From an uncultured Rubrobacteraceae bacterium (GTDB taxonomy: Bacteria > Actinomycetota > Rubrobacteria > Rubrobacterales > Rubrobacteraceae), in assembly GCA_902806095.1 (NCBI GenBank), contig CADCVF010000081.1, forward strand, positions 1 to 64,000: 64,000 nt of DNA. Direction: 5' to 3'. Both the position numbers and the translations under genes were made by a program. The notes beneath the pieces are model-generated. The model searched no databases. It was not told where the DNA came from and saw only the letters and a list, made by a program, of their open reading frames with translations. Below, one piece after another: positions 43,480 through 47,139 of this stretch (position 1 is the stretch's first letter; each line of letters opens with the position of its first letter).

Positions 43480-44445
43480 GTGGGGCTCTGGGTGTATATG
43501 GCGCTCGTCCTCGGCTGCCTGTCTGTGTTCGCAGGGTGCGGAAGCGACGAGAGCCAGGTCCCTGTAACGCCCACCCAGAGTTCGGAGGCGCCCCCAGCAG
43601 GCACGACTACAAGCAACGCTGTGGTTGGGGAAGGACAGGCCGAGAGCACCAAGGACATGCCTTTCACGCTCAACACGACCCAACCAGTACCGCCGAACTT
43701 CGAGGAAGCGTACGGGCGGAGGGCCAGGCTCGTGGTCCAGTTCTACAAGCTGGACCAGGACTCGCTCTCCTATCCACAGGGCCTCTCTGTGGACCGCAAG
43801 GTCAACAGGTCCATGATGCGACTGAGCACCAGGTATCCGACCATCGAGTTCTTCACCTACGAAATCGCGAACCCCGGGCCCGTCGGCGACGAGCAGAGTC
43901 TGCAACCCGGCGAGTACGGTACACTGGCCGCGCAACTTGGGGTCGGCATCACGCCATTCGTCGCGATGCTCGCGCCGAGCGGCGAGGAATATGTGATCAC
44001 CAACCTCTTCGAAGGATACGTGCCAAGACCCGTGCTGAGCCAGGCCCTCTTCGACCTCGCGGCGGTGCAGGTCGAGGACAACACGAGCGATGCCAACGTG
44101 ACCCTGGAACAGGTACAGACGACCGACAAGGGCGGCGGAATCGAGTACTTTACCGTGCAAAATCGGGGTGTCAAGCCCCTGAACCTGCAGGGCTTTACCC
44201 TGAGGGTCCTCGATCCCGAGACGGCGCAGGTAACACCTGGCGCGCCGGGTGTTACGATCAACAGCGATGTCGAGGCAAAGCGGGGTCAGGACGTCTCCAT
44301 CGGCCGCGTTCCCGACATAGTAGACGATACGGGCAAGCGCGTGGCAGGCACGTTCGAAGGAGGCACGTCACTGGATCTGGCGCCCGGAGACCAGATCGCG
44401 CTCCTCGACCCCGGCGGCGCGGTAGCCTCGACCATCACCGTCTGA
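43480..44445 (+). CDS. Lipoprotein with thioredoxin-like and lamin-tail-like domains
   Basis: The 321-residue protein starts with a short hydrophobic signal and lipobox (VFAGC, cysteine 20). After a Thr/Ser/Pro linker comes a domain with the order of a thioredoxin fold (RLVVQFYKLDQDSLSYPQG ... YPTIEFFTYEI ... GVGITPFVAMLAPSG) but no CxxC. The last 110 residues resemble a lamin-tail-type beta domain (GIEYFTVQNRGVKPLNLQGF). It should sit on the outer face of the membrane. Function is unknown. GTG 43480 is preferred, with ATG 43498 as the alternative. It is divergent from aspS. Confidence 0.72.
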   Translation: MGLWVYMALVLGCLSVFAGCGSDESQVPVTPTQSSEAPPAGTTTSNAVVGEGQAESTKDMPFTLNTTQPVPPNFEEAYGRRARLVVQFYKLDQDSLSYPQGLSVDRKVNRSMMRLSTRYPTIEFFTYEIANPGPVGDEQSLQPGEYGTLAAQLGVGITPFVAMLAPSGEEYVITNLFEGYVPRPVLSQALFDLAAVQVEDNTSDANVTLEQVQTTDKGGGIEYFTVQNRGVKPLNLQGFTLRVLDPETAQVTPGAPGVTINSDVEAKRGQDVSIGRVPDIVDDTGKRVAGTFEGGTSLDLAPGDQIALLDPGGAVASTITV

Positions 44446-44501: not shown

Positions 44502-45662
44502 ATGACTGATGCTGTTTACCTGGACAACGCCGCCACCACGCCGCTCGACCCGCGAGTGCTGGAATCGATGCTTGGGCACCTTGGCGCTCGACGCGGCAAT
44601 CCTTCTTCGCTGCACGCATTCGGAGGCTCGGCGCGTGAAGGGTTGGAGGAGGCCCGTGCCGGTGTGGCCTCTCTGATCGGGGCTTCACCAGGGGAGATAG
44701 TGTTTACCAGCGGCGGAACCGAATCCGATGTCCTGGCCGTCCTCGGTCTGGCGAGATCCGCAGGCTCCGAAAAGCGGCACGCGGTCGTCTCGTGCGTCGA
44801 GCACGCGGCGGTGCGGGAGGCCGCGAAACGCTTGCAGTCCGAAGGCTTCGAGGTGTCCTGGATTGGGGTGGACGAGGAGGGTCTCCTCGACCCAGCCGAG
44901 TTCGCCGAATCTGTGCGCCCGGACACAGCACTGGCCGCCGTTGTATGGGCGAGCAACGAGGTCGGTACTGTCGAGCCCGTGCTCGAGCTCGCCGAAATCT
45001 GCGCGGCGAAGGATGTACCTTTCCACGCCGACGCCGTCCAGGCCGCTGGCAGGGTCCCTATCGATGTCTCGGAGGCACCGGTCTCGACGCTGGCGCTCTC
45101 GGGCCACAAGCTCTACGGCCCGCAGGGCATCGGCGCCCTGTACGTGCGTGAGGGCGTCTCGCTCGAACCCATCGTCTACGGGGGAGGGCAGGAGAACGGG
45201 CTGAGGAGCGGTACCGAGAACGTCGCAGGGATCGTCGGCCTTGGCACGGCTGCGAGGCTGGCCCGCGAGGAGATGGACGACCGTGTCACGCACGAAAGGG
45301 AGCTACGCGACCGCATCGTGGCCGGGGTGGAGGAGATACCTCACGTGCTCGTAAACGGGCATCGCGGGCGACGATTGTCCAACAACGTCCACCTGACGGT
45401 ATCCGGCGTCGAGGCCGAGAGCCTGGTCCTCTTCCTCGATTCGCTCGGCTACGCAGTCGGGAGTGGATCGGCCTGCTCTTCGGGCGGGCACAAGGCTTCA
45501 CCGGTCTTGCTCGCGATGGGCCTGTCCGAGCGAGAGGCGTTCTCCGTCGTCAGGATCACGGTCGGCAAAGACAACACCGTGGAAGAGGTCGACGACTTCC
45601 TCGAGGCGTTCTCGACCGCGGTGGCGCAGCTACGAGAGCTCTCCCCGCTCTACGCGGGCTGA
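44502..45662 (+). CDS. Cysteine desulfurase (NifS/IscS-type)
   Basis: The 386-residue PLP enzyme takes sulfur from cysteine as a persulfide. It has NAATTPLDPRVLE, the PLP lysine in TLALSGHKLYGPQGIG, GGGQENGLRSGTEN, and the catalytic cysteine loop GSGSACSSGGHKASPVLLAMG, of the long-loop (class I, IscS/NifS) form. It is followed after 13 bases by the IscU-like/MnmA fusion gene, so it is the likely sulfur donor for tRNA 2-thiouridine. It could also serve iron-sulfur assembly. Confidence 0.94.
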   Translation: MTDAVYLDNAATTPLDPRVLESMLGHLGARRGNPSSLHAFGGSAREGLEEARAGVASLIGASPGEIVFTSGGTESDVLAVLGLARSAGSEKRHAVVSCVEHAAVREAAKRLQSEGFEVSWIGVDEEGLLDPAEFAESVRPDTALAAVVWASNEVGTVEPVLELAEICAAKDVPFHADAVQAAGRVPIDVSEAPVSTLALSGHKLYGPQGIGALYVREGVSLEPIVYGGGQENGLRSGTENVAGIVGLGTAARLAREEMDDRVTHERELRDRIVAGVEEIPHVLVNGHRGRRLSNNVHLTVSGVEAESLVLFLDSLGYAVGSGSACSSGGHKASPVLLAMGLSEREAFSVVRITVGKDNTVEEVDDFLEAFSTAVAQLRELSPLYAG

Positions 45663-45675
45663 ACGCGGGTCATTC

Positions 45676-47139
45676 ATGTCCGATCGGTACAGACAGCAGG
45701 TCGTAGACCACCTTGTCCGGCCGCGCAACGCTGGTGAGATAGGCGACCCCTCGGGCAGGGGCGAGTCCGGCGACGCCGCGTGCGGCGACGTCGTCCGCTT
45801 TACGGTCGGGATCTCAGGCAACGTCCTCGAACAGGTTCGCTACAAGGTCTACGGGTGTGCGGCGTGCATAGCCGCCGGCTCGGCGCTCGCCGAACTGGCC
45901 GAAGGCAAACACCTTCTCGATGCCGCCAGTGTCTCGAAGGCTGATCTGGAGGATGCGCTTGGCGGACCACTTCCCGCCGGTAAGGAACATGCGCTCACGC
46001 TCGTCCTCGACGCACTGCACAAGGCCTTCGAGGACCACTGGAACCGTACGGCTGGCGAGATGCTCTTCCACGCGAAAAGCGGCCGGGCAATCGGCGGCAG
46101 GAGTGTCGTGGCCGCGATGAGCGGGGGTGTCGATTCGGCGGTCACGGCCCTGCTTCTCAAAGACGCCGGCTACGACGTGGCAACCGTGACGTTCCGGCTG
46201 CACGACGGCGAGAGGGGCAGCCGCTCGTGCTGCTCGCCTGATACGGTGCTCTTCGCCCGCGACACGGCGCACAGGATGGGCCTGCCACACTTCACGCTCA
46301 ACCTCAAAGAGCTCTTCAACAGGCGAGTCATGCAGGACTTCGTAGGCTCATACAGCGAAGGCAGGACGCCCAATCCCTGCGTCGCGTGCAACGCCCACGT
46401 CAAGTTCCATGCCTCCTCGTTCCTTGCGGATGAGCTCGGGTTCCGACACGTTGCGACGGGGCACTACGCCAGGGTAGAAGAGGGTCCTGCGCTCGCACGC
46501 CCCGTGGACGAAAGCAAAGATCAGACCTACGTACTATGGCCCGTACCGCGGGATCTCCTGTCGCGCACGATCTTCCCCCTCGGCGAGTACAGGAAGACTG
46601 AGGTGCGCGCCATAGCCGAGGAGCGGGGTCTCGCCGTCGCTTACACGCCTGAGAGCCAGGATATCTGCTTTATCCCCGACGGGGACTACCGCAAGTTCGT
46701 GCGCAAGAACGTGGCGGCGGAGCCCGGAGACGTCGTAGACCGCCAAGGACAGGTACTAGGCCGTCACGCCGGCGTCGTCGACTTTACGGTCGGACAGCGG
46801 CGCGGAATAGGAGTCTCGGCGCCGACGCCACTTTACGTCAACGAGGTGCGCCCACGCTCGGGTCAGGTCGTCGTCGGACGCAAGCAGGATCTCGAGGTGC
46901 GCGAAGTCAGGGTCGGGAATCTCAACTGGTTCCTCGATCCCGAGGAGGCTGCTTGCGTGCAGGTCCGCTACAACGGCTCGCCGGTCCCTTGCACACTCGA
47001 GGAGACCGATGACGGTGGGTGGGTAGCCTCACTCGATGAGCCTGTCATCGGTGTCGCGCCGGGCCAGTCCGCCGTGTTCTATACAGGGGATGGGGAGCGG
47101 GTCGTCGGGGGCGGCGTCGTTGCGCGCAGCGGTTCTTGA
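45676..47139 (+). CDS. mnmA: IscU/NifU-like domain fused to tRNA 2-thiouridylase MnmA
   Basis: The 487-residue protein joins two units. Residues 1-130 are an IscU/NifU-type scaffold (YRQQVVDHLVRPRNAGEIGD, GDAACGDVVRF, YGCAACIAAGSALAELAEGK). The third scaffold cysteine is replaced (GKEHALTLVLDAL where HCS is usual). From about 140 it is MnmA: PP-loop AAMSGGVDSAV, the first catalytic cysteine in NPCVACNAHVKF, SKDQTYVLWPV, the second in ESQDICFIPDGDY, and FTVGQRRGIG. MnmA places sulfur on uridine 34 of tRNAs for Lys, Glu and Gln. ATG 45676 is the start; the frame further upstream lies inside the desulfurase gene. The fused domain may hand over sulfur or an iron-sulfur cluster. Confidence 0.93.
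   Translation: MSDRYRQQVVDHLVRPRNAGEIGDPSGRGESGDAACGDVVRFTVGISGNVLEQVRYKVYGCAACIAAGSALAELAEGKHLLDAASVSKADLEDALGGPLPAGKEHALTLVLDALHKAFEDHWNRTAGEMLFHAKSGRAIGGRSVVAAMSGGVDSAVTALLLKDAGYDVATVTFRLHDGERGSRSCCSPDTVLFARDTAHRMGLPHFTLNLKELFNRRVMQDFVGSYSEGRTPNPCVACNAHVKFHASSFLADELGFRHVATGHYARVEEGPALARPVDESKDQTYVLWPVPRDLLSRTIFPLGEYRKTEVRAIAEERGLAVAYTPESQDICFIPDGDYRKFVRKNVAAEPGDVVDRQGQVLGRHAGVVDFTVGQRRGIGVSAPTPLYVNEVRPRSGQVVVGRKQDLEVREVRVGNLNWFLDPEEAACVQVRYNGSPVPCTLEETDDGGWVASLDEPVIGVAPGQSAVFYTGDGERVVGGGVVARSGS

Follow-up and report, generated by a model that had tools for sequence, protein, structure and literature searches.

The window analysed here is the whole 64,000-nucleotide stretch of DNA from an uncultured Rubrobacteraceae bacterium, whose genome assembly is 3.83 Mb and 98.6% complete. 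On its forward strand, a cysteine desulfurase gene is followed after 13 bases by a gene, running from an ATG at 45676 to a stop codon ending at 47139, that encodes a 487-residue protein with an IscU-like domain in front of MnmA. A preliminary description had reported this IscU/NifU-MnmA fusion; its coordinates proved exact, and Pfam and NCBIfam agree with it. The features of the locus are:

44502..45662, + strand: IscS/NifS-class (group I) cysteine desulfurase, 386 aa (ORF and family matches)
45108-45110, + strand: desulfurase PLP lysine K203, in SGHK (from sequence)
45474-45476, + strand: desulfurase catalytic C325, long loop GSGSACSSGGHKAS (from sequence)
45676..47139, + strand: IscU-like domain fused to C-type MnmA, 487 aa (ORF, Pfam, NCBIfam)
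45688..46050, + strand: IscU/NifU_N domain, residues 5-125 (Pfam, alignment, AlphaFold2 model)
45781-45783, + strand: IscU-like domain C36
45787-45789, + strand: IscU-like domain D38
45856-45858, + strand: IscU-like domain C61
45865-45867, + strand: IscU-like domain C64
45988-45990, + strand: IscU-like domain H105
45991-45993, + strand: IscU-like domain A106, a cysteine in canonical IscU
46051..46101, + strand: short linker, residues 126-142 (AlphaFold2 model)
46102..47121, + strand: MnmA part, residues 143-482, with PP-loop SGGVDS (Pfam, NCBIfam, alignment)
46228-46233, + strand: MnmA C-type cysteines C185/C186
46378-46380, + strand: MnmA C-type cysteine C235
46387-46389, + strand: MnmA C-type cysteine C238
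46666-46668, + strand: MnmA C-type cysteine C331

The desulfurase was assigned to group I (IscS/NifS) by its PLP lysine, its catalytic cysteine on a long loop and its match to the IscS/NifS family. Its best NCBIfam match was NifS (E 4e-132), under the NifS equivalog cut-off, and it scored 285 against a cut-off of 304 for PRK02948, which we take to be the YrvO-type desulfurase model. Other desulfurase-like matches in the same genome were at most 32% identical to it. Among relatives (the Rubrobacteraceae desulfurases L008, L011 and L022), the catalytic-cysteine loop differed in length, with short insertions separating the cysteine from the HKAS/HRAS motif. Upstream of the desulfurase, on the same strand, positions 43480-44445 hold a predicted lipoprotein-like ORF with a signal-like start and the sequence AGCGSDE.

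Within the fusion, Pfam placed NifU_N at residues 5-125 (E 9e-25), the MnmA HUP domain at 143-334 (E 9e-63), a PRC-barrel at 340-402 and the C-terminal domain at 409-482. The C-terminal part belongs to MnmA by all three of its domains, the PP-loop SGGVDS and an NCBIfam match of 378 bits, above the curated cut-off of 284, and C185/C186, C235-x-x-C238 and C331 form the CC-CxxC-C motif of the C-type class (PMC11784392, PMC8584467). The IscU-like domain fell short of the NCBIfam equivalog cut-offs for scaffolds, at 99.9 against 187.9 for NifU_clost and 63.9 against 192.4 for IscU. The closest solved relatives were IscU/NifU proteins for the N-terminal part and MnmA for the C-terminal part. An AlphaFold2 model of the fusion, from 30 sequences, had a mean pLDDT of 88.9 and a pTM of 0.87, with its lowest confidence at linker residues 132-134. 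It matched MnmA (2hma/2der) and IscU (7c8m/4eb5), and the predicted N-terminal domain reached a TM score of 0.92 to 7c8m, as expected of an IscU fold.

The fusion is the only mnmA in the genome and so replaces a stand-alone MnmA, a point that the preliminary description had put forward for checking. The relay suggested in the preliminary description also required no Tus proteins, and neither TusA nor DsrC/TusE gave a match in the genome at E 0.001. This layout, in which a desulfurase gene immediately precedes mnmA and neither TusA nor TusE is found, is that of Bacillus subtilis YrvO-MnmA, for which Tus-free transfer of sulfur directly from desulfurase to MnmA is already known (PMC5372745). In Bacillus, however, YrvO and MnmA suffice, whereas the window MnmA carries a fused IscU-derived domain (PMC5372745). 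Two further NifU_N proteins in the window genome were both SufU-like, and one of their genes adjoins two SUFBD_core genes (SufB/D). The second (L033, on contig C60, outside the window) lies away from the suf cluster, beside a YchF-like GTPase gene on the opposite strand. With the genome having its own SUF machinery for general cluster assembly, the desulfurase and fusion look like a dedicated pair.

A search for the fusion across Actinobacteria, as initially proposed, covered a sample of 397 genomes, in which the surroundings (3-12 kb) of about 100 MnmA genes were inspected. Fusions (64 sequences) recurred in Rubrobacteraceae (f1) and nine other families (f5, f14, f21, f27, f29, f39, f48, f55 and f72), f14 matching Miltoncostaeaceae/Thermoleophilia; a narrower profile search with the fused domain matched in Rubrobacteraceae and Miltoncostaeaceae/Thermoleophilia. 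One Miltoncostaeaceae-type locus resembled the window in its neighbours: an AspRS gene precedes it, and a DUF948-like gene and an AlaRS gene follow (names assigned by eye). Among Rubrobacteraceae, the two parts were fused in 20 genomes and encoded by two adjacent genes in five, and three more genomes held fragments at contig ends. The two-gene forms that were checked overlapped by a few bases in three cases and abutted after an in-frame TAA in one. The family has either a desulfurase and a fusion, or three genes in which the ends of IscU and MnmA overlap or abut. In the two-gene forms a start codon overlaps or adjoins a stop, so that fused and split forms both look real.

Desulfurase, IscU and MnmA were encoded by three adjacent genes in families f18, f45, f64 and f78, and in many other actinobacterial families MnmA stood alone or with a desulfurase. 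Beyond Actinomycetota, a Zixibacteria MAG (L144) carried three adjacent genes, for a desulfurase, a NifU-like protein and MnmA. C-type MnmA without an IscU domain was common in the phylum, and an association between the C-type cysteines and the IscU domain was rejected on that ground. An adjacent desulfurase was mainly a Rubrobacteraceae trait. The two-protein relay first envisaged is not general, since nearly all other fusions lack an adjacent desulfurase, and some fused genomes have only SufS-like desulfurases. In f29, f39 and f72, where the desulfurase matches were distant and SufS-like (~30% identity), sulfur for the fusion would have to come from another route.

Mapped on an MnmA tree with 127 rows, the three states took 10 changes, compared with about 50 when labels were shuffled. 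The fused state took 6-7 changes, among which gain and loss are not distinguishable on the tree. The bulk of the fusions formed one large clade, with f48 and f5 separate. No description of an IscU-MnmA fusion was found in the literature available as open-licence papers. The fusion is real, widespread and constrained, and joins known parts in a new combination.

Five site residues, C37, D39, C63, H105 and C106 in E. coli IscU numbering, were tabulated across fusions and controls. The window domain has GDAACGD (C36, D38) and YGCAAC (C61, C64), as first described. The third site, reported as absent, is not wholly lost: in KEHAL the histidine H105 is kept, and only the cysteine is missing (C106 to Ala). 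The extra cysteine, C64, is present, frequent among Rubrobacteraceae and close to exclusive to them, with none in the other fused families. The resulting pattern, C-D-C-H-A, departs from that of a five-residue scaffold at position 106, and also from the SufU pattern, C-D-C-[K/R]-C, which the SufU genes checked showed wherever the end was present.

None of the 64 fused domains had all five residues, whereas three-gene IscU proteins outside Rubrobacteraceae had C-D-C-H-C in 13/13. This bears out the earlier suggestion against normal cluster assembly: the window domain probably does not act as an ordinary scaffold. C-D-C-H with C106 changed to Ala or Gly was found in 52 rows (47 fusions and five Rubrobacteraceae two-gene rows, with one genome entered twice). 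H105 was lost but C106 retained in five fusions from f27, f48 and f55, and loss was more extensive in 12. In f21 fusions, C37 (C36 of the window) was the sole survivor; in f5 fusions, site loss ranged from partial to full, with one retaining none of the five. C36 was retained in all but two fused or Rubrobacteraceae-split domains, both exceptions being f5 fusions. As f21 keeps only C36 and one f5 fusion keeps nothing, no domain cysteine is needed in every fusion.

Stand-alone IscU genes beside a desulfurase served as controls and had C-D-C-H-C in 9/9; eight came from fusion-bearing genomes and one from an f27 genome, G316, with an unfused MnmA. Intact stand-alone IscU in genomes that carry the fusion indicates that site loss tracks MnmA fusion, or recent split, and not the genome. 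Since the fused lineages share ancestry, these comparisons amount to only 3-4 independent contrasts, with which a sign test is unable to reach 0.05. In G316, a 269-aa open frame (L233, contig C28) has an IscU-like domain of divergent sequence with C-D-C-H-C. Purifying selection acts on the fused domain (dN/dS 0.11-0.34), though it is less constrained than canonical IscU, for which the single pair measured gave 0.016.

The ligands of Zn/Fe2+ in mammalian ISCU are C35, D37, C61 and H103; C104 is not among them and instead receives the persulfide (PMC6687725). By equivalence, the window domain would retain the metal site and be without the persulfide receptor. The missing ligand had been taken to suggest sulfur carriage, which is not an obvious inference, as the lost residue corresponds to that receptor (PMC6687725). 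With C106 lost and the Zn/Fe2+ ligands kept, sulfur carriage would need C36, C61 or C64, or would bypass the domain.

In E. coli, helix 1 and K103 of IscU are required for IscS binding, and Cys37, the most exposed cysteine and the closest in the complex, was proposed as the first acceptor (PMC2854127). The window domain has both docking elements; across Rubrobacteraceae, K103 was present in 22/22 rows and helix 1 was recognisable. Mean scores for the N-terminal motif were 49-51 in Rubrobacteraceae; in the fused families that lack a neighbouring desulfurase, helix 1 is worn and the means were 5-29. Judged from these sequences, we favour a fused domain that is functional, may still meet the desulfurase and hold a metal, and would no longer assemble clusters in the usual way.

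Among known systems, the domain is most like IscU, MisU and clostridial NifU, in its predicted fold, its best sequence relatives, the residues equivalent to C37/D39/C63/H105, K103, helix 1 and the neighbouring partner desulfurase. It differs from them in lacking C106, in being fused to an enzyme and in occurring in a genome with separate SUF machinery. SufU likewise has an altered five-residue site, with Lys/Arg for His, and a CGD cysteine as a possible acceptor (PMC10216065). The window domain, however, has retained the His but not the Cys, is less similar to SufU in sequence and is partnered by a desulfurase that is not of the SufS class. Its MnmA part shares the CC-CxxC-C set with C-type MnmA of Thermus thermophilus (PMC8584467, PMC11784392) but has the additional N-terminal domain.

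These data suggest, with a probability of about one half, that IscU has been repurposed from a scaffold into a desulfurase-docking, metal-holding sulfur-delivery module. The fusion would be a tRNA 2-thiouridine-34 synthase whose N-terminal domain descends from an IscU-type scaffold. In Rubrobacteraceae, the surface that this domain retains from IscU, with helix 1 and K103, would dock the adjacent group I desulfurase, and C36/D38/C61/H105 would bind a mononuclear metal, either Zn or Fe2+. The domain would also hand on or direct the persulfide of the desulfurase in cis to the MnmA active site (C235/C238/C331), which probably carries a [4Fe-4S] cluster. Having lost C106, the domain would no longer divert sulfur into cluster assembly. 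The combination of the same three proteins in operon and fusion, the site intact in three-gene IscU and broken in every fusion, the retained docking surface beside a separate SUF system, purifying selection and the confidently predicted IscU fold all argue for docking and in-cis delivery. Against it, f39 fusions, with no desulfurase beside them, retain K103 too, no single domain cysteine is indispensable, the independent contrasts are few, and Bacillus YrvO-MnmA functions without an IscU-like domain. More tentatively, an Fe-S scaffold may have been turned, perhaps repeatedly, into an in-cis sulfur-delivery domain whose four-residue metal site steers sulfur to s2U34 and away from Fe-S clusters; on this reading, the cluster site would be broken in each fused lineage, mostly through loss of either partner in the His-Cys pair.

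A domain acting as a dedicated cluster loader, which would assemble or accept an Fe-S cluster and place it in an MnmA CxxC-C site that needs [4Fe-4S], would fit the MnmA half, as T. thermophilus MnmA, of the same C-type, is reported to be a [4Fe-4S] enzyme (cited in PMC8584467); for E. coli MnmA, the cluster question is disputed (PMC8584467, PMC11784392). Three-gene operons with the canonical scaffold exist, and C36, D38, C61 and H105 could still ligate a cluster together with an MnmA cysteine. We nevertheless consider a loader rather unlikely: at least one site residue is lost in every fusion, several of the genomes carry intact IscU paralogues elsewhere, and in ISCU the equivalent of C106 accepts the persulfide used in assembly (PMC6687725). 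Moreover, the frequency of C-type MnmA without an IscU domain in the phylum indicates that the domain is not required for cluster loading in general.

Slightly less probable is a SufU-like relay, in which C36 accepts the persulfide under metal gating and hands it to C331 of MnmA. SufU is a Zn sulfurtransferase that uses its CGD cysteine (PMC10216065), and C36 is equivalent to that residue, Cys40, in M. tuberculosis SufU. The near-universal retention of C36, including in f21, the proposal of Cys37 as first acceptor in E. coli IscS-IscU (PMC2854127) and the H105-less, C106-retaining fusions, which in this respect resemble the SufU proteins examined, would all accord with such a relay. However, the receptor in ISCU is C104 and not C35 (PMC6687725), two f5 fusions have no C36, and the desulfurase lies outside the SufS class, whose own histidine swaps the Zn ligand.

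A structural or tRNA-handling role, with the domain outside the flow of sulfur, seems improbable. It would explain why no domain cysteine is universal and why most fused lineages have a worn docking helix and no adjacent desulfurase, but Rubrobacteraceae retain four site residues, the helix and the desulfurase, and the same partners make up the three-gene operon. An indel from sequencing or assembly that joined two genes at about residue 130, to which the separate genes of five Rubrobacteraceae genomes might point, has a negligible probability and was rejected along with chance, given the same open frame in 20 genomes of the family, the fusions in other families, the short linker of a well-scored model and purifying selection on the domain.

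The finding suggests that IscU-type domains may leave cluster assembly and serve tRNA modification. Whether MnmA works through a persulfide or an Fe-S cluster is an open dispute (PMC11784392), on which a natural fusion with an IscU derivative bears. The fusion, its unfused canonical relatives and the natural single-residue variants form a compact system for changing the sulfur donor, the carrier and the acceptor one at a time.
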